Position numbers and translations under genes: made by a program
Shown here: piece by piece, positions 47,585 through 59,400 of the stretch
Layout of the letters: each line of letters starts with the position of its first letter
Numbering within the stretch: the first letter of the stretch is position 1
Notes under the pieces: generated by a model
Told to the model about the DNA's origin: nothing
The model's database searches: none
What the model saw: the letters and a program-made list of their open reading frames with translations, nothing else
Assembly (NCBI RefSeq): GCF_002105155.1
Contig: NW_019028986.1
Location: 692,501-756,500, forward strand
Direction of reading: 5' to 3'
Source of the DNA: Lobosporangium transversale
Taxonomy: Eukaryota > Mortierellomycota > Mortierellomycetes > Mortierellales > Mortierellaceae
DNA: 64,000 nucleotides

Positions 47585-49315
47585 GATGTGTTCCAGGGGG
47601 TGCTTTCACAAATAGGATGAAGATAAAATTCTTGAAGATAAAAAAAAAATGTAATAAAAGGTCGACAGAAAGTGCACGTGGAGGAGTTGTGAAGTTTTTT
47701 TTAAAGAGGAGCCTATGAAGTATTTCAGATGAAGATGTTAGTATACACAGATGCAAAAAAAAAAAAAAAAAAAAAAAAAGGTTTGTTGAATTCGATATTG
47801 CCATTCAATTGTACCTTGTTCGAACTGGATGATTTTGGGATAGCACACTATAAGACTATAACGATGACTGGAATATGAAAAATGGAAAACTTTATCAAAC
47901 GAAAGGGAAAAGGAGAATGGAAAATGAAAAAGGGGAATGATATTCGTGCACAAGTTTTTTTTTTTAAAAGTAATATAAAATAAAGCGCGTTTGTCGCTTC
48001 GATTGCAGTAAGGTGTATGTTAGGGATAAAAAGAAAGGCGCAGACTAAAGGAAGAAAAATAAATTAAAAAAGAGTTGAACAATAGCAAAAAATAATAGGG
48101 TATCTTGGAAGGTTGTTTTATGGAATGAAAGATGTTGTGGACATGAAAAAAAAAGAAGAAAGGAAGTAGGAGAAGAGGATGAGTGGATGTATTTATGGAA
48201 AAAGACCAAGAAGAGAGAAGAGGTCAGAGATTCGGTTCGTGAGGCTGCGTGCTTTACAGGTGGCACACACAGACGCACGCACAAACTCACATTTTCTCCC
48301 GTTGGTTGGACTTCTTCCCGTTTCCCTTCAAAACCCCTTCCAAAACACCTGTGACCAAATCAATCCTCCATTGATCTACTTCTACTTCCACTACAAAAAA
48401 GAAAAACGCTGTGTGTGTGTATATGTCAATGTTTGATGTTTGTGAATGTGCATTTATCGCCCATGAGCAATGCGAGAGCATGAACAAAAGGTAACTTTAA
48501 AGAAAAATAGGGTGACCTTGTTAAATGGCGCGCAAAAAGACAAACAAAAAAAAGGGATGACACGTCTTGTGACACCAAGGCAACGATACATCCGTGCCAA
48601 GGTGTAACCAGCTGGCATGCCACTCTTATCCACAAAGTGATATGTAGAAGTAGCGAAGCTCATCTAATCATTCTTTTATTTGTTTTGTTTATATAGGAAT
48701 AAGCTACGACAAAAGGAGAAGAAATACTACGATTTCATCTTATTCCCAGTTGGTAAAAGAGGAGGGAGACAACAACACAGCACACGCGCATATTTCTCCC
48801 GTCCTTCTCTTTGTCACGCAAGGGCAAGAAAGATCTAGCAAAATAAATTTACTCTCGATGCTGACCATTGCGTATAAAAAAGACATGTGGGATGGTGAAT
48901 TGACAAATATGCATGCTTATGGTAGACGACCAAAGACGTTAGACTTGTACGGCTTACATATTAATGCTATTAAACCCGAAACATGTCGTTACTTCGTAAA
49001 ATCTGGACAATAACAACAGCAACAAAAAACTTCCATCCTCTTACGATCGCCGAGCAAGAAATGTAACCACAAAAAAGTAAGTAGATCAAGGCTCATAGCG
49101 AACGGCTCGTCGTCTATTAACAGATAAGTTTGCCTTATTTTCATCCTACATTGTAGTGGTTTTTTTTATTTATTTATTATTTTTTTTTACAAAGAACGTG
49201 ATAGCTTGAGAGCTACAGGGAGACAAACTCTCTCAAACTCATTTTTAAGAGCGCAGTGTAAACGAAGAGCATGAAATGGATGACCAAGCACTTGGAACGA
49301 GTTAAAATAATAATA
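47585..49315. other. Intergenic region before the transposon
   Basis: A short poly(A) lies at 47756-47779. Two short frames without recognised family occur near 48454-48663 (minus) and 48750-49013 (plus). From 47.8 kb onward no homopolymer of 15 or more appears until 56.6 kb. The sequence near 49300-49315 (aataataata) is the left flank of the element. Confidence 0.4.
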
Positions 49316-50853
49316 TAGCCCGTTTCATTTGGTCACGATACCTTATATTTTTTAAATTGATTGAATAGACTCAAGCGAAAATTGAATTGTATTGAATAGC
49401 AACTCTAAATCCGATGTCGTTCGCTACTTGCAAGCTTGGCTCGCTGTCCTCTATTTGCACGCCGAGCGACGGAAGAGGTCAGTGGCTTTGACGTTGAATA
49501 ACTGTTATGCGTCACTATGTTTTGCTTCCTTACCTTCACTCTAGCTCTCACGCAACACAATCAAACATGATGATCGTCAAATTCACAGAGTTCCATCAAG
49601 TAAGTAATAGACTATCTTTTTTTTATCATTTACCTGCGCTTCCTAATTATTTGTGAGTAATCTCTGGTTTCTTACGATGAATAGACGCGGAATCTTTCGA
49701 TCCAATGAGAACATCGCAGCTTCCTTCTCCCTTTTCTTTTTTTTGACCTTGGAGGTCGTTACAAGGAGACGCCAGATGTTCTGCTGATTCGAACTGGCCA
49801 CTACCCATAGTGGGGAAACTTTTTGAGCAGGTCTTTGACCTTGTGCAAAAGTTTCAGCCCTCCGGTTTTAAAAAGATTCTGTCAAGCATCTGAGTCTTTT
49901 CTTTTTTTTATATTTTCTTTTTCTTTTTCTATGGCTGCTGAGGGATATACGAAGGGACGCCGGATGCTCTGCTGATTCGAACTGGCCACTACCCATAGTG
50001 GGGAAACTTTTTGAGCAGGTCTTTGACCTTGTGCAAAAGTTTCAGCCCTCCGGTTTTAAAAAGATTCTGTCAAGCATCTGAGTCTTTTCTTTTTTTTATA
50101 TTTTCTTTTTCTTTTTCTATGGCTGCTGAGGGATATACGAAGGGACGCCGGATGCTCTGCTGATTCGAACTGGCCACTACCCATAGTGGGGAAACTTTTT
50201 GAGCAGGTCTTTGACCTTGTGCAAAAGTTTCAGCCCTCCGGTTTTAAAAAGATTCTGTCAAGCATCTGAGTCTTTTCTTTTTTTTATATTTTCTTTTTCT
50301 TTTTCTATGGCTGCTGAGGGATATACGAAGAGACGCCAGACATCTCACTGATTCGTTAACTGCCCACTATTTATAGTGATGGAAACTCTTGGTCTTTGAC
50401 CCTGGTTTCAGCAACCCAGTCGTATCGAATCTCAAGGGTTCTGGCTCTATTTCTTTTTTTTTTCTATTTTTTTTTCCCCCTCCAAGACATGGTTCCGCCT
50501 TGGTTCTTGCTATCTCCTGCCAGCTCGCCAGGTCTGACCACAAGTTGCCGTCTGTTCTCCGTCGCGGAAAATGGATAATATGATTATTTTTTTGCATGGT
50601 ATTACAAACGCAAGGCCTTTATTCAAACCTACAACATGCAACTCGACATCGAGACCAATTTTAACCATCATATATACTCTGAAGTAATATTAGGCCAACC
50701 AAGATTTTACCCATTCGCACACTCGGATTCTTAGCAGCTGTCGGGCCGCGGTTTTTGTCGAGGCGTGGATGAGGATATCGTGGGCAAGACTCTCAACAAT
50801 GTTTATATTTCGTTGGAATAACAAAAAGCATCAAGCATTAAAGTCGAATAACA
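49316..50853 (+). repeat. Terminal inverted repeat, left (1538 bp)
   Basis: Reverse complement of 55133-56482, but longer by exactly one 188-bp internal unit. The inner edge follows gtcgaataaca. A second short imperfect direct repeat of about 30 bp (gaataacaaaaagca) straddles the inner edge at about 50817-50870. Confidence 0.9.
49763..50326 (+). repeat. 188-bp tandem repeats, three units, left arm
   Basis: Units start at 49763, 49951 and 50139, with a diverged partial unit from 50327 to about 50400. Each contains gacgcc(a/g)gatg, a CCACTACCCATAGTGG palindrome, CTTTGACCTTGTGC and a T/C-rich stretch ending CTATGGCTGCTGAGGG. The second and third units look identical. The palindrome makes these candidate transposase binding sites. 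Confidence 0.9.
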
Positions 50854-51239
50854 AAAAGCACCAATCATTATACTCGAATTGCGCAACAAGAATTATCAGG
50901 CAATAAAGCTGCATATTTTCGATAAACCCTTAATATTTATTTATATATATCATGTATTATGCAAAACTTGACTGCAATTATGCCAGCTAATGGCACACAT
51001 GTCTGCGTGATCATGGTAAGAAAGGCTATATCTTCTGTATGCCATCGATAGCGTTTTCTTCACAAAGCTGCTGAAGTATTCAATTTCTTGCTGTTGTAGA
51101 TCTCGATCATTAGACTAGGTCATACACTGAAGGCCTAACATTAGTGACGGCTATGGCGGGGTTCAATAAAGGGCTCCCTCTTGACAACAAATAATAAACA
51201 ACTTTTTATCTTCCTTCACATTCCAGCAAAATTTTTACA

Positions 51240-53063
51240 ATGTCTTCAGCACAATTTTCTTTAATCCCCACAGAACTTAGTGCGGAACAGGCAAGCCGGA
51301 GAAGCGAGTCTTTTATTTATGAAGAGTCCAACCAATCCATGTTTTCTCAAGAACATGAGAATGATAATCCCTTCCTCATCAGCATGGATGAAGGTGGTCT
51401 TCATGCACCGCCACGACTTAGTAAGACAACCGTAGCGGAGGAGGAATACCGCCTAATCGCACATATCTACGCAAAGCTCAGCAATGCGCCGCCAGAGTTT
51501 CAAAAATGGATGAGACAATCGTTTGGCATGAAAGAGTGTGTGCAGATGGCTAAGCTTACCGGGGTAAATGCACATTCCTGTCTAGCAGCTATCAACTACT
51601 CAAGGACAGGGGTATTGAAGTTGCCCAACAAGGGTGTGGGACGTGGCCGTAAAGCACAAGCAAAAGATAAAGTGCTCCAGGGACATATCACGGATATCAT
51701 CAGGAGAACTAATCTGGGAGGTATCCCGAATACACTTGGACGAGTGGTGAATGAGCTCAGAAATGAGCATGGTATCAGGACGTCAAGGTCAACAGTTCAT
51801 CGATACCTACATGCAAGTAACTTTTACTGGGGAAAGGGGGTTCGAAGGAACTTTATGCACGATGCACCTCACATTGTGCAATACCGACTGAAATACCTCA
51901 CAGAGCGTTTCAAGAACCTGGTGGAGCTTGACGATGGTTTAATCCCTATGATGCCAGAGGTATTTCTTGATGAGTCCTATTGTCACCTGGACCATTCCTC
52001 AAAAAATCGATGGGTAGAACGGGACGGAGGCATTGTGTGTGAATCATCTCGGCAACCACTTCTCGTCATGTTCGCTGCATTTGTCATCTATTACGACCGT
52101 GACGAACAGAAGGTGGTGGGGAAGTTTGTTGAGAACAGTGTTCACATCTGGGCGGCGAACAGCAAGGCATCTCTTCAGGGAAACGCCGATCATATGCAGC
52201 CCAATAGTCAGATTCTTGCAAATGATCATGACTATCATGGTCATTTTAACCACGAGGTGTTCGAAGAGCTGTTTACGACGGTTTGCCAAAGTCTGGTAAA
52301 GATGAATCTCGGTCCTTGTAAAATACACATGGATGGTGCCAGGTACCATTTCCATTGCCCTGATAGGAAGCCAACGGCCGCCAATAAGAAATCGGAGATA
52401 ATGGAATGGCTTATATCTCATCAATTTGGAATTCCACCCGGTTCTAACGGTGATCGAACGCCAAGCAAGTCAGAACTACTTGCTTATATAAGGACCCTTG
52501 ATTACCAGCCACGGTACACGGTCTGGGACATCGCATTAGAGAATGGGGGCCACTGGATTATTAGGACACCTCCTTATCATTGCGAACTCCAGCCCATTGA
52601 ATTAATCTGGGGCGTTATAAAAAACAGCGTAGCTTACATGATATCCGGATCGATGGCTGCCGATCAACTTATCCAGATGCTGAAGGAACTCTTCCGAAAT
52701 GTTCAAGTTAAAACTTTCGTTTCTGCCTGGAAAAAAACCCTTAGTTTTGCCTACAGATACATGCAGGAAATTCGTGGCCAGACATTCGAGACGGCCGAGG
52801 TGCAGGAAGAGTTGGAACAAATTTTTCATTCGATTGATTTTTCCGAGGCCACATTCAACAGGCTTTTTGGGATTGGTGCTGCCAGAGGCCGATACAATGT
52901 CTTAATTGAGCCCATGGAAGATGGTGATATTGGTGATGAAGTTGATGAAGTTGAAGAAGACGTTGATCTTATCCCGACATCTCGATCCTTGGCTCCTGAT
53001 GAATTGGAGGAAGACGATAATTCAATGCCGGCTTCACCTTCAGCCCGTTTTTACCGCCACTAA
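51240..53063 (+). CDS. DDE transposase, Tc1/mariner-IS630 type (DDE_3), 607 aa
   Basis: Predicted to bind the inverted repeats and cut and join DNA. A single open frame from ATG after the leader to TAA. The N-terminal about 90 residues are acidic and unrecognised. Residues about 95-200 form helix-turn-helix-type DNA-binding segments ending TSRSTVHRYLHASNFYWGKG. The RNase-H-like catalytic core has Asp244 in PEVFLDESYCHLDHSS, Asp365 in CKIHMDGARYHFH and Glu454 in PPYHCELQPIELIWGVIKN. There are 88 residues between the second Asp and the Glu, much more than the 34 or so of classic Tc1 elements. The C terminus is acidic. All three catalytic residues are present, so the enzyme may be active. Superfamily is secure; the exact family is not. 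Confidence 0.92.
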   Translation: MSSAQFSLIPTELSAEQASRRSESFIYEESNQSMFSQEHENDNPFLISMDEGGLHAPPRLSKTTVAEEEYRLIAHIYAKLSNAPPEFQKWMRQSFGMKECVQMAKLTGVNAHSCLAAINYSRTGVLKLPNKGVGRGRKAQAKDKVLQGHITDIIRRTNLGGIPNTLGRVVNELRNEHGIRTSRSTVHRYLHASNFYWGKGVRRNFMHDAPHIVQYRLKYLTERFKNLVELDDGLIPMMPEVFLDESYCHLDHSSKNRWVERDGGIVCESSRQPLLVMFAAFVIYYDRDEQKVVGKFVENSVHIWAANSKASLQGNADHMQPNSQILANDHDYHGHFNHEVFEELFTTVCQSLVKMNLGPCKIHMDGARYHFHCPDRKPTAANKKSEIMEWLISHQFGIPPGSNGDRTPSKSELLAYIRTLDYQPRYTVWDIALENGGHWIIRTPPYHCELQPIELIWGVIKNSVAYMISGSMAADQLIQMLKELFRNVQVKTFVSAWKKTLSFAYRYMQEIRGQTFETAEVQEELEQIFHSIDFSEATFNRLFGIGAARGRYNVLIEPMEDGDIGDEVDEVEEDVDLIPTSRSLAPDELEEDDNSMPASPSARFYRH

Positions 53064-53390
53064 GTTAATAAAAAGCATGTGCTGGTGGTCCACCTCAGTC
53101 TTAAAGCATTGATTTCCTACTCTGTTGATTCCATCCATGTTGCTTATTCATTTAGCACAGTCGTTACAAATGCTCCTGATTTCATCTGGTAAGCTTGGTC
53201 CACTTATTCCCAGAGGCGGGGCATTGTCTCATGTTGCACAAAGGAGTTAGGAGTTATATTTTTGTCGCTTTCACAGATAAAAAGAGGTCTCTGAACTTCT
53301 TCGCAATACTAATAAACCTCTTCACAAACTCTTCACAAAGCTTCACACAAAACTTCTTCACAAACCTCATAAATACCTCACCAAACAAAA

Positions 53391-55106
53391 ATGGCCACCA
53401 GCACAATTTTTCAGAAGCCTCAAAAGGTCAAGGTTGACTTGGATACTATGATATCTCAACTTCCAATTGGCAAATGGCCAAGCCCAAAAGATCTTACCCT
53501 TTTCCATTTCGTCGAATGGGCCGTCAAGGAATACGGCGTGGATCGTGAAGCTAGCAGTTTCAGCAAAATTATCAGTGAGATCAGGAGGGCGGCGCGACCA
53601 AGAAGAGATGACTCAGTCCTGATCATCATTTACAAGGAGAACTTACGTGCCTTACTAAAAGGCATAAAAAAAACAAACATCAACAATTACCTGAAAGTAT
53701 GTGTCGAATAATTTAACGTTGAACCAATGTTTACTTCCATTATGATCCAATATTAATAAAAATAATAACAACTAGCCCGACGAGTCTGACAAGACTAACA
53801 AGTCTGACGCGGATGAGCCTATCAACCACCTCACTGGGGAAGGCGAGAGGAGTAGTCAGGTCACCGATAGGTTGGTCTTAAACGGAGGTTTCGATGTATC
53901 TTCTCCCCTCATGGAGGTACGAGAAGAACTCATTAAACTTGAGGAAGAGCGCCAGGGAACGCTCCTCTCTCCACATGATATTCTGTGAGTGCTTTTTACT
54001 ACCATTTATTTCATTGCTTGAGAACACACCGAAGGCCGTGACGCTGATACAGTTCTTACTGTGTTTTCTAGCTCCATAAACTTCATTTTCACAAAAGAGT
54101 TTATGGAAAAATATTTTTCAAAGGCGGGGCGTCGTAAACTCAAGCGCTTTTTCAAGGTTACAGAGACCAGTGTAGCCTTGAGTGAGCAGGATTTGGATTT
54201 TTCCAAATTCTGCGTGGAGAAAGCAAAGGCGTCGAACTCTGCTTCCGAGTATCGCGCCTTTCTTGAAAAGGGTCAGGAAGGGGCAGGTGAAATGCTCAAG
54301 AGCATTTTCACCAAACTTGGCGAGGACGAGATGTTTTGGGAGTCGCCTGGCAAAATAAAAAAAAACGAGGCGACGTACAGCGCGCTCTACGTCAGGCCCT
54401 ACATCTGCGCCATCGCATCGACTTTGGGATACTGGTGAGTAGTAGATCTGTCAGTTCTTTGTTCTTCATTCATTTCTGCAAGATATTCACATGTTATTTC
54501 TTCACTCTTGGTATAACACGTCTCCGCTTTCAGCGATAGCAGAATCCCAACGGAGAAATACTATACGGAGCGCTTTAGACCAGATAACCTGGTTATGGTC
54601 GACGGCCTGCCTCTACTCGTAGTGGAGGTGAAGCCCCCAGGAACCTCTAAAAAGCTCCTTGATAGAGATTTCAGGAAGTTACTTTCTGAAATGAAGCTGG
54701 CACTAGATCTCTTGTTCGCCAAGGGTGTAAAAGACCCAACGGTCCTGGGTCTGCTTGTCCAAGGTATGTTACACTCTTGTATATTTTTACGATCCATGAA
54801 ACCTAAACGGAGACAGTGGTGCTAATTCACGCTTTAGATGGTCAAATGGAAATCTTCGTGATGACCCTAGATTACGAAGCCGTTTATATCCCCAGATTAT
54901 TGGGCAAGGTCAAAGTGCCCAAGGGCAGGAAGAGCCTTAGCGTGGTTGCGGAAGCAGTGCCAATTCTGGAGACTACAAAGACAGCTTACTTGAAAGCCAA
55001 GGAAGCTGTCGGGGAGCGCGTGAGGGTTACAGACGAGGTGAAACATACATGGGTGAGGCCATCTTTTTACCTCCAGATCAATAGAAAGCGCAAGAGATCA
55101 GAATAA
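53391..55106 (+). CDS. PD-(D/E)XK nuclease-like protein, second gene of the transposon, 458 aa
   Basis: Five exons join in frame: 53391-53696, 53776-53984, 54072-54434, 54534-54763, 54838-55106, with introns of only 74-99 bp and no homopolymers. Residues 1-100 are basic and mixed; residues about 103-172 are acidic and probably disordered; a helical basic segment (GRRKLKRFFKVTE) follows. The core shows RFRPDNLVMV with Asp310 and LLVVEVKPPG with Glu324-x-Lys326. This is the D-(x)13-E-x-K signature of restriction-endonuclease-like folds, followed by MEIFVMTLDYEAVYI. It resembles REase-like domains common in early-diverging fungi and in Crinkler-type proteins. It lies 328 bp after the transposase and ends 26 bp before the right inverted repeat, so it is cargo or a partner of the transposase. 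An alternative exon 5 acceptor at 54816-54817 also keeps the frame. The role is inferred. Confidence 0.75.
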
Positions 55107-55132
55107 ATTGCTTCATTTAGGATTGTTTATTG

Positions 55133-56482
55133 TGTTATTCGACTTTAATGCTTGATGCTTTTTGTTATTCCAACGAAATATAAACATTGTTGAGAGTCTT
55201 GCCCACGATATCCTCATCCACGCCTCGACAAAAACCGCGGCCCGACAGCTGCTAAGAATCCGAGTGTGCGAATGGGTAAAATCTTGGTTGGCCTAATATT
55301 ACTTCAGAGTATATATGATGGTTAAAATTGGTCTCGATGTCGAGTTGCATGTTGTAGGTTTGAATAAAGGCCTTGCGTTTGTAATACCATGCAAAAAAAT
55401 AATCATATTATCCATTTTCCGCGACGGAGAACAGACGGCAACTTGTGGTCAGACCTGGCGAGCTGGCAGGAGATAGCAAGAACCAAGGCGGAACCATGTC
55501 TTGGAGGGGGAAAAAAAAATAGAAAAAAAAAAGAAATAGAGCCAGAACCCTTGAGATTCGATACGACTGGGTTGCTGAAACCAGGGTCAAAGACCAAGAG
55601 TTTCCATCACTATAAATAGTGGGCAGTTAACGAATCAGTGAGATGTCTGGCGTCTCTTCGTATATCCCTCAGCAGCCATAGAAAAAGAAAAAGAAAATAT
55701 AAAAAAAAGAAAAGACTCAGATGCTTGACAGAATCTTTTTAAAACCGGAGGGCTGAAACTTTTGCACAAGGTCAAAGACCTGCTCAAAAAGTTTCCCCAC
55801 TATGGGTAGTGGCCAGTTCGAATCAGCAGAGCATCCGGCGTCCCTTCGTATATCCCTCAGCAGCCATAGAAAAAGAAAAAGAAAATATAAAAAAAAGAAA
55901 AGACTCAGATGCTTGACAGAATCTTTTTAAAACCGGAGGGCTGAAACTTTTGCACAAGGTCAAAGACCTGCTCAAAAAGTTTCCCCACTATGGGTAGTGG
56001 CCAGTTCGAATCAGCAGAACATCTGGCGTCTCCTTGTAACGACCTCCAAGGTCAAAAAAAAGAAAAGGGAGAAGGAAGCTGCGATGTTCTCATTGGATCG
56101 AAAGATTCCGCGTCTATTCATCGTAAGAAACCAGAGATTACTCACAAATAATTAGGAAGCGCAGGTAAATGATAAAAAAAAGATAGTCTATTACTTACTT
56201 GATGGAACTCTGTGAATTTGACGATCATCATGTTTGATTGTGTTGCGTGAGAGCTAGAGTGAAGGTAAGGAAGCAAAACATAGTGACGCATAACAGTTAT
56301 TCAACGTCAAAGCCACTGACCTCTTCCGTCGCTCGGCGTGCAAATAGAGGACAGCGAGCCAAGCTTGCAAGTAGCGAACGACATCGGATTTAGAGTTGCT
56401 ATTCAATACAATTCAATTTTCGCTTGAGTCTATTCAATCAATTTAAAAAATATAAGGTATCGTGACCAAATGAAACGGGCTA
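55133..56482 (-). repeat. Terminal inverted repeat, right (1350 bp)
   Basis: Reverse complement of 49316-50853 lacking one 188-bp unit. Every segment compared by eye matches closely. The outer end is GAAACGGGCTA followed by TA. Confidence 0.9.
55660..56035 (-). repeat. 188-bp tandem repeats, two units, right arm
   Basis: Units 55660-55847 and 55848-56035 in inverted orientation, with the same diverged partial unit on the inner side. One unit fewer than the left arm. Confidence 0.9.
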
Positions 56483-59400
56483 TATATAATAATAAAGAAG
56501 CAATCACGGAGAAAAAGAAAGTGTCAGCGAAGGTCAGCCGCATTGCATGCGGGACTTTTTCCCGCCAGATAAGTTCCTTCCTTCCTTCAGTCCTTATTTT
56601 ATAATGTCATAAAGGAGTAGCTTTTCATGCAAAAAAAAAAAAAAAAAAAAAAAAAAAGGCGTTATGTAACTTGTACACATGTTCAAATGACATGTAGACC
56701 GGTAGGGCTCTTCAAAACAACACACAATGCAGGGCTATTCTTCGACGTGTGTACCTGTGTTACAGGTGCACACAGAGGAAGGGTGCGTCGCTTCGTGTAG
56801 CAACCACACCTTCAAGAGATAGTTCTTTTTCACGCACTTGCTCCCTTTTCACTTTGTTACATGATCAATTGTACAAAAAAAACTTAAATAAAACAGATCC
56901 TTGCCTCCCTACTGCAAATCATATCAATTTTTTCATAGATTTCATAAGACCACTGGAAAGCTATCTTCGGTAAAAACCTTCCAGGAATGAAAGAGCTGAA
57001 GAAAGTTAAAAAATATGAAATATGAGACAGTTTGGTATGTGGAATAGGGCAAAAGGACAGGATAAGATGATCATAAAGTAACGAAAAGGAGATATCTCAT
57101 GGATATTCCGTGATGATCTGTATAATCGCTAAAAGAGTGAATACAATTTAAAAATTGTAGGGAAGAAAATATAAAGGAAGTAATGGTGAGAAGACAAATA
57201 GATGTTCAGATGTCCGCTTCTTTCCAATGGACTCAATGGTCTCTTCGTGTTGAATGATACATGTGTCTACAGGCTATTAATTGAACGCGTTTTTTTTTTT
57301 TTTTTTTTTTTTTTTCCACAACGTACATGCAGTATACAAACCTTGCTGCCACATGATCCGACATCAGTCAGTGCATCACATAAGCACATGGTGTGCAACG
57401 TGCATTTTCATTTAATCATTGAAATCTTAGCGGAAGATCACAAGAAATTTTCTAATTCTTTAAACTGCGAGCGAGTATATCCTCTTCCCATTACCATACA
57501 ATTTGCAAGGATAACACTTTTGCCTTTATAATCGTTCATGATCTCAAGGCACGCAGCTCGACATTTATTTGAAGACACGGCTAATATACATGTGCAATAT
57601 AATAGATGGCAGATATGAATAGCAAGTGGACTTTGCAGAGTGCATGTTCACTCATTTTAAAGTTTGGGGTCAGGGTTGATTCGTTAATCTACTGCATCAC
57701 GTTTAAAGTGAACACTCATTATTACATGTACAAGTGTTTCTAATTCCTCGTGTTACTTTTTTATGTCGATCGCAGTCGGTTGTGGTAGGAATAAGGAAGA
57801 CTGTTTACTCTTCTTTTCCATCCACAGTATTACGACTGTGTTATTTACAACTTCTCGCCATTGTAAATGAATGCTTTACGCCACTTATCCGTCATCACGT
57901 TCTCTTTGCTCACATGGGATACACAAATATGGGTTAAGAATTGCCTGTGTCCCTGTCCTTTGTAGTCGGCATGCATGCTCTTGTTACAAATTTTGCACAT
58001 GCGTTGGACGGTACACAGTTGAAAAAAAGGTTGATTGAATACTCCCCAACTATATTGCAAGCTTGTGATAATTCACAAGTTCATTTATTACATTGTCGAT
58101 AATTAATTATTCTGTGAACACAGGGAGACTAGCATCTTTTTCCTCTTTTCTCTGCCTCTTATCATTCGTAGTGACATTCTTTTTTCCTTCCTTCCTATAA
58201 ATTTGAGCTTGGGACCTTTGTTGTCCAAAAGAAAGCCAGTAACAGTAATATTTGCAAGCACCTAATAAGCATGAATAGGCTGTTTGATTAATCTTTGTGC
58301 AAGAATGTGAACAGATTTTCAAGTACAGGAATATTTCCACAAGGGTCCCTTGAACGATCCTTAAAACAAAGAATGAGCAATGCCACAATTTCACGCGCAT
58401 GCATAATTCTGGTATACCTTTGAGATACAGTTTCTGATGTTGAGTTGAAAATTAGCACGCCCATTTTTCCAAATTACGATTGCGGGATGGAATTTATTTG
58501 TTTTTGTCCATTGCTGATCTTTGACTCCTTGATATGTTTTTCTCTTGTTGAACGCTCGTTTTTGAATAGGAGGACCCTTGAGATGAAATCAACAATCATC
58601 CCCCGACAACGTGGCTTCTGCGACATGTGCATGTTTTTTTGTAATCAGAGCATGCTCTGAGCGCTGATTCGGGTTGAAGTGATATCGGGAAGACTAGTGA
58701 CTTGATGCTAGTTTGATTGATTGCCTTGTGAAAAAACACTTTGGCCATGCCATGTGCTCGCTGGTCCAGGCACAACTCACATATTACATGCATTGTAACA
58801 CATTAACACGTAGCAACCGCTTCCAATGAATGCATTGGCCAGCAATTTGTCCCGCAACTGAACATTCTCTTTTCAAGAAAAGCTACTTAATGTGTGTGTC
58901 CCGCTCATAAAACTATGCACCTGCACCTGTTTGAATTACATGCTCCACGACAACATTGCACAGTGTTGTAAGTTTACATGAAGTATAAAAGAGATATCAT
59001 TTAAATACCTGGTATGACCCCATCCAAATGTTGCTTCCTTTTTTCCTTTTATTCATTCCATTTCGCATATCCTTCTTTCAGCATCCTACAAAATACATTT
59101 AATACTAAATATCTACAAGCCTGCTCGTGCTTTTGTCACGTATTGGTGAGTCATTTCCTCTCTCCTTTCAGTAACTCTCTCGTGTTCTACATCTTCCGTC
59201 TTAAATCCTATACCACACATCCTTCATCTCTCCACACCATGCATCTGTGTCCGCTGTAATACTCCCTGTCTATTTTATTCCCTCCAGCCAACACGACGAC
59301 ATACTCAAAGCATGGGTTGTGCAACCAAAGATGCTTTGTTTTTTGTTGCATACCAAGTAAAATTTAGTCTGTGCCTGAACATGCGCTTCAACAATATTTT

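Follow-up and report, generated by a model that had tools for sequence, protein, structure and literature searches.

What a second, nuclease-like gene does inside a transposon of the IS630-Tc1-mariner group is the question raised by a 64,000-nucleotide stretch of the genome of the fungus Lobosporangium transversale (contig NW_019028986.1, positions 692,501 to 756,500; hereafter the window, to which coordinates without a contig number refer). The window contains an intact transposon of 7,167 bp (49316..56482) in which two plus-strand genes, one encoding a DDE transposase (P1) and the other a putative PD-(D/E)XK nuclease (P2), are enclosed between kilobase-long terminal inverted repeats (TIRs). 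Mariner-type elements of eukaryotes are regarded as transposons with a single gene and, in most cases, short TIRs, and we know of no earlier accessory nuclease in IS630-Tc1-mariner elements. The combination recalls Tn7, which carries a DDE recombinase (TnsB) and a separate PD-(D/E)XK protein (TnsA). The explanation preferred here, to which we assign a probability of about 0.5 as a whole, is that P2 is an accessory PD-(D/E)XK nuclease that was acquired once and then kept. The transposon family is a known one; the second gene was not encountered in the literature searched, and its recurrence in a second transposon family is unexpected.

An intact two-gene element of the Sailor type

Both ends of the element carry the same outer tip, TAGCCCGTTTCATTTGGTCACGATACC, with TA adjoining each tip (49314..49315 on the left and 56483..56484 on the right). 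Self-alignment delimits a left TIR of 1,538 bp (49316..50853, plus strand) and a right TIR of 1,350 bp (55133..56482, minus strand) that are 99.8-99.9% identical over the aligned parts, so that the range of 1.35-1.54 kb given in the initial annotation is exact. Their lengths differ because a 188-bp tandem repeat inside them (plus strand) has one unit more on the left (3.1 units, 49763..50337) than on the right (2.1 units, 55649..56035); a 30-bp tandem repeat of 2.1 units (50816..50879, plus strand) is found at the inner edge of the left TIR. Between the TIRs, P1 (51240..53063) is an uninterrupted, single-exon open reading frame (ORF) of 607 amino acids, and P2 (53391..55106) is a spliced gene of five exons encoding 458 amino acids. 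No third gene was recognized among the ORFs of at least 80 amino acids in the element. The matching ends with TA flanks and the two complete, co-oriented genes of the initial annotation are thus borne out.

In P1, the second catalytic aspartate (D365) and the glutamate (E454) are separated by 88 residues (DD88E), and the motifs EVFLDES, KIHMDGA and HCELQPIEL are close to the Sailor consensus motifs I/VVYLDET, VIIMDNA and HCELNPIEL given in the accessible part of PMC8533490. A Pfam search detects DDE_3 at 8.7e-5, which is below the cut-off, and a sequence search of P1 against the PDB gives no match. The AlphaFold model of P1 (mean predicted local distance difference test score, pLDDT, 72.5; 34 of the 43 homologues aligned with the window protein) matches Mos1 (3hot_A, E-value 3.3e-7), Sleeping Beauty (5cr4_B, 7.3e-5) and SETMAR (3f2k_A, 4.4e-4), with a much weaker match to TnsB (7svw_B, 1.1e-3). 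The Mos1-like model and the TA duplication described below support the assignment to the Tc1/mariner-IS630 group.

In the parts of PMC8533490 available to us, the Sailor (DD82E) superfamily is founded on four transposases, one of which is a 607-amino-acid protein of L. transversale; the D-E spacing ranges from DD78E to DD111E, and the L. transversale element is described as 6,979 bp long with TIRs of 1,362 bp, to which its size is ascribed. Some of the full copies identified in the present analysis span 6,975-6,983 bp, with TIRs of 1,350-1,352 bp. Given this match in host, sizes and motifs, it is practically certain that the window element is an intact, recently mobile Sailor-type (IS630-Tc1-mariner) copy of L. 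transversale. The initial annotation knew of no described fungal element with exactly this layout. As regards the family, the element is not fully new, because it is in all likelihood the published Sailor; as regards the layout, the available passages of PMC8533490 mention no second gene, and its main text, in the form available, contains no words starting with "nuclease" (a count that "endonuclease" would escape) and none starting with "accessory". A literature search, with supplements and RepBase entries outside its scope, recovered no recognizable description of the P1/P2 pair.

The L. transversale assembly (42.7 Mb; C-numbers denote contigs, C106 being that of the window) contains six full copies of the element at six sites, on C106 (the window copy), C58, C53, C37, C13 and C44. 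These copies are 6,793-7,168 bp long, differ pairwise by 4-8 mismatches and have identical tips. The P1 frame is open in five of the six, the P2 frame in three, and both are open in three, the window copy included; frameshifts affect the copies on C13, C53 and C58. The search of the host genome for the terminal sequence, suggested in the initial annotation, gives 127 matches to a 19-bp tip with at most two mismatches, compared to none for the reversed control, numbers that show a large non-autonomous following. Separately, small non-autonomous elements with the tips of the window element were noted (L012, L020-L028), some of them only about 180 bp long.

Empty sites, the other check suggested at the outset, were searched for with the C44 and C37 copies. 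The C44 copy lies inside a dispersed repeat, and its flanks, once joined, can be aligned to 28 further genomic locations with 74-79% identity; all 12 of these that were fetched (L055-L066) are empty and contain a single TA, not TATA, at the junction. The C37 flanks, joined in the same way, retrieved only the occupied site and no empty paralogue from the genome. All six full copies are flanked by TATA on either side, but the empty C44 paralogues indicate that the outermost TA at either end belongs to the element itself, which therefore duplicates TA upon insertion. The 4-bp TATA duplication, which in the available text of PMC8533490 is the predominant one for Sailor and not a criterion of the family, is thus not seen at the C44 site. 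Because the published L. transversale transposase is a founding member of Sailor, this result is best read as a correction of the duplication and not as an exclusion from the family: the empty sites revise the published target-site duplication of the L. transversale Sailor, as given in those passages, from TATA to TA. The near-identical copies and the empty sites make the element young and recently mobile.

The second gene encodes a predicted nuclease

The five exons of P2 (53391..53696, 53776..53984, 54072..54434, 54534..54763 and 54838..55106, all on the plus strand) are separated by introns of 79, 87, 99 and 74 nucleotides, all of the GT..AG type. The first two exons agree with, and the first two introns are supported by, a public partial gene model of L. 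transversale for the same protein (BX616_004551, P0055). Exon 3 encodes a conserved (L/I)NFIFT stretch and the NE of the first core helix, exon 4 encodes the RPD and EVK of the predicted PD-(D/E)XK core, and exon 5 encodes RKRKRSE, with the stop codon at its end.

The whole P2 sequence retrieves no homologue from 8,000 candidates that were scored, and a profile constructed from nine P2-like sequences retrieves 12 proteins from 7,999. Of these 12, 11 are named as proteins of Lobosporangium, Lunasporangiospora, Actinomortierella, Linnemannia, Entomortierella or Mortierella, fungi of the Mortierellaceae type; the remaining one, P0054, is nameless. The profile has no sequence match in the PDB. The only Pfam hit of P2 at an E-value of 1 is HSDR_N (0.011, below the cut-off), located in exon 4; no TnsA family and no Crinkler family or header domain appears at this threshold, and no nuclease family in Pfam or NCBIfam is matched by 11 relatives of P2.

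Four residues, E107, D146, E160 and K162 of the alignment of the nine P2-like sequences (alignment A1), are invariant in all nine and correspond to the helix E, the D and the ExK of the PD-(D/E)XK signature. In addition, the predicted model of the P2 relative P0053 (mean pLDDT 68.7, alignment of 11 of the 12 homologues) displays an alpha-beta-beta-beta-alpha-beta core. The structure check proposed in the initial annotation was thus carried out on P1 itself, with Mos1 as the closest match, and for P2 by way of a relative. These features agree with the original view of the second protein as PD-(D/E)XK-like, and a PD-(D/E)XK nuclease fold, with no curated family to assign it to, is likely for P2, rather than proven.

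The pairing recurs in sister subfamilies and in a second transposon family

By our own count, the L. transversale genome contains 32 distinct P2-like loci. A P1 gene adjoins P2 at 13 of these, namely, the six full copies, C95, C106:374k, C106:296k, C72, C82, C106:377k and C39, so that the pair is not confined to the window element, as it would have been had the two genes never met elsewhere between such ends. Subfamily 2 (S2; C72 and C82) shares with the window element, which belongs to subfamily 1 (S1), 37-61% identity in P1 and 27-49% in P2, depending on the matched stretch, and its TIRs are 1,538 bp (C72) and 1,175 bp (C82) long. At eight other loci (C55, C70, C85, two on C2, C46, C34:106k and the relic C59), a pogo-like transposase is encoded on the same strand as the P2-like gene. 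The pogo-type element at C2:163974-171473 is 7.5 kb long, with tips TA/CAGTGGAATC, TA flanks and TIRs of 1,166 bp, a length that comes from this one of the eight loci.

A one-gene Sailor lineage provides the comparison. Its open frame of 684 amino acids shares about 41% identity with P1 and occurs at 12 or more loci, and no P2-like match lies within 10 kb of these. In the two copies fetched (L041 2187-4534 and L042 2163-4512), which are 99.7% identical, the element is 2.35 kb long with TIRs of about 40 bp; its tips are related to those of the window element. Thus, TIRs of 1.35-1.54 kb in S1, 1.18 and 1.54 kb in S2 and 1.17 kb in the pogo-type element contrast with the roughly 40 bp of the one-gene sister lineage, which suggests that the presence of P2 goes with long TIRs, on the basis of three families, two of them related, in one genome. 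Internal direct repeats are found in the long TIRs of each of these three families, with no similarity between families, so the long TIRs probably grew separately. Three pogo-like relatives without P2 (C73, C84 and C33) have no TIRs in the 6-6.5 kb fetched for each and are uninformative as a TIR control.

Several further observations concern individual loci. In the two-gene pogo-type transposons (L029 and L030; C2, six other loci and the relic L037), the P2-like gene lies upstream of the transposase on the same strand. Next to pogo-like transposase genes and convergent with them, two ORFs (L044 300-1178 and L046 1-582) look restriction-endonuclease-like by eye and have no Pfam match. The region C106:373500-378800 (L034) holds relics of subfamily 1 and subfamily 2 transposons in tandem, or a chimera of both. 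At C40:771133-783311 (L014/L015), a P2 relic is contained in inverted arms, each at least 4.3 kb long, and the 4.5 kb between the arms include an ORF for a RecQ-like helicase. The idea that this locus is a transposon with TIRs and a RecQ helicase gene was rejected, given that the arms run beyond the element ends; the arrangement is either a true inverted duplication or an artefact of the assembly.

The two genes appear to share their descent

Phylogenetic trees were constructed for P1 (nine genome rows and 10 of the 43 homologues) and for P2 (12 of the 14 models and 9 of the 12 homologues). The P1 tree unites the P2-bearing subfamilies S1, S2 and S3 (S3 being a single, long-branched relic, C39) at 100/100 and, among them, S2 with S3 at 86/87; the sister group of this clade comprises P0001 and P0017, and the one-gene lineage falls outside. 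The P2 tree agrees, with S1 supported at 99/98 and S2 plus S3 at 95/94. The pogo-type P2 may or may not have come from Sailor (81/85, on long branches). The simplest reading is a single acquisition of P2 followed by co-inheritance with P1. Between the window and C95 copies, the synonymous distances of the two genes are unequal (0.18 and 0.47), a sign of possible recombination.

What P2 may do, and the alternatives

Several observations weigh against the single acquisition and retention of P2 as an accessory nuclease. The one-gene Sailors thrive without it. Eight of the 32 P2-like loci have no transposase in the fetched DNA (C54, C106:833k, two on C51, C63, C45, C34:295k, where the P2 match was unconfirmed by tblastn, and C40:1141k); three more, C24 and the two C40 arms, are P2 relics with Sailor-1-type TIR sequence and no transposase; and the 4.5 kb fetched for the S3 relic contain no inverted repeat. 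The association with long TIRs covers three families of one genome, two of them related. With regard to the fold, a Foldseek search with the model of the P2 relative gives no match at an E-value of 1e-3 or better; mitoribosome chains are at the top of the list, the nearest nuclease is HindIII (0.038), and the restriction endonuclease (REase)-like 3ijm and BsaXI also appear. In the relic P2 of C95, which is outside alignment A1, the D is lost. Small indels break P2 in three of the six near-identical copies and P1 in one, sequencing error being a possible cause. Finally, the Nei-Gojobori ratio of nonsynonymous to synonymous substitution rates (dN/dS) between the window and C95 copies is 0.83 (0.55-1.3) for P2 and 0.22 (0.16-0.30) for P1; the partners in these comparisons are relics, which inflates the ratio, yet the value for P1 of the C95 relic stays low. 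Other close P2 pairs or pieces give dN/dS values of 0.36-0.85, and in deep pairs the synonymous sites are saturated. Thus, P2 is less constrained than P1, which favors a role that is dispensable or of the conflict type and speaks against an essential function.

On the reading of P2 as an accessory nuclease, P1 alone would perform cut-and-paste transposition at TA, by analogy with the Sailor/mariner family. P1 is presumed to be self-sufficient because the one-gene Sailors are multi-copy and because a single active site of the mariner transposase Hsmar1 cleaves both strands of an end (PMC5714172, in its accessible part); P2 would then not be needed as a TnsA-like cutter of the second strand. An ancestor of the three P2-bearing Sailor subfamilies would have acquired P2 once, probably from a nuclear gene family of Mortierellomycota, and retained it ever since. 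That P2 serves the element in some way seems somewhat more probable than the opposite. Its specific role could be to cut DNA in the nucleus at or around the element, i.e., at the long TIRs, the donor site or the target site, and thereby to steer repair towards copying and homogenizing the element and its kilobase TIRs, but this part of the proposal is tentative, and a cargo gene with another function is as likely. Slightly more doubtful still is the broader idea that the Sailor and pogo-type transposons each recruited a PD-(D/E)XK partner of the same class into the machinery of transposition or copying, and that the partner allows or builds kilobase TIRs with internal repeats.

The cargo explanation, the most probable of the alternatives but less likely than not, holds that P2 is a captured host nuclease of the wider REase-like class, which is shared with Crinkler-type proteins. 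It would travel with the transposon and have its function elsewhere than in transposition; it might be selfish or antagonistic, or it might weaken silencing by the host. Capture is plausible because transposase-free relatives of P2 are present in the genome (the eight loci listed above) and homologues exist in other Mortierellomycota; to this extent, the suggestion in the initial annotation that the element may have captured a nuclease finds support. The faster evolution of P2 compared to P1 resembles that of conflict proteins, the active site is eroded in the homologues P0045 and P0046 (both outside alignment A1), which have lost core residues, and REase domains are part of fungal Crinkler-type effectors, as described in the available portions of PMC6131194 and PMC5289972. 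In contrast, retention of the pair through the split into three subfamilies exceeds what is expected of passive cargo, and a second, pogo-type transposon family has a P2-like gene between long TIRs. Membership of P2 in the Crinkler family itself was rejected, as no Crinkler domain is matched in Pfam at an E-value of 1.

It is improbable that P2 is a mere hitch-hiker, that is, a host nuclease gene that was trapped once between the TIRs and persists by chance with no role. The weak short-term constraint on P2 and its frameshifts in three of the six copies are what such a gene would show, but homology, splice sites and catalytic residues have been retained past the saturation of synonymous sites, and the pogo-type transposase represents a second pairing. 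Least probable is the analogy with TnsB/TnsA raised in the initial annotation, under which the two strands of an end would be divided between the proteins, the transferred one being cut by P1 and the other by P2: a DDE and PD-(D/E)XK pair does occur in one element and recurs in sister subfamilies, but P1 is modeled closest to Mos1 with TnsB far behind (3.3e-7 against 1.1e-3), the mariner transposase Hsmar1 uses one active site for both strands (PMC5714172, same part), the one-gene Sailors, whose tips are related, exist in multiple copies, of which the two fetched are nearly identical, the target duplication is a 2-bp TA, and P2 matches no TnsA family in Pfam at an E-value of 1 and is broken in half of the near-identical copies.

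Comparison with known systems

An accessory nuclease in this position, if confirmed, bears on the origin and upkeep of identical long TIRs and on the addition of PD-(D/E)XK partners to a self-sufficient DDE transposase. L. transversale provides the set for comparison within one genome: a P2-bearing clade with long TIRs, a one-gene relative with short TIRs, and a second family with the same partner.

With Tn7, the window element shares a DDE protein accompanied by a separate PD-(D/E)XK protein, but P1 is mariner-like, the duplication is TA, no third gene is recognized, and P2 has no Pfam match to TnsA. The REase domains of Crinkler (CR) proteins are likewise restriction-endonuclease-like domains in a fungus, whereas P2 has no Crinkler match in Pfam and is encoded inside TIRs beside a transposase; in prokaryotes, REase-NTPase pairs are discussed as linked to transposable elements (PMC5289972, in the part available). 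The pogo/Tc5-type element on C2 of L. transversale has in common with the window element a P2-like gene next to the transposase and long TIRs, but its transposase belongs to another family and the nuclease gene lies upstream of it, not downstream. With the Tc1/mariner transposons (Mos1, Sleeping Beauty and Hsmar1), the common features are the TA target, the RNase H-like DDE core and the best PDB matches of P1; the differences are a D-E spacing of 88 residues, compared to 34-41, a length of 7 kb, kilobase TIRs and two genes, elements of the IS630-Tc1-mariner group usually having a single ORF, a trait that does not define it (PMC8533490, available passages). The closest system is the Sailor of L. 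transversale, which, compared by its description in those passages, agrees in host, transposase length (607 amino acids), element size (about 6.98 kb), TIRs of about 1.36 kb, the HCELxPIEL motif and a D-E spacing (DD88E) that falls inside the published range; beyond that description, the window element displays a spliced gene for a predicted PD-(D/E)XK nuclease, and it duplicates TA, with a TIR that itself begins with TA, instead of TATA.

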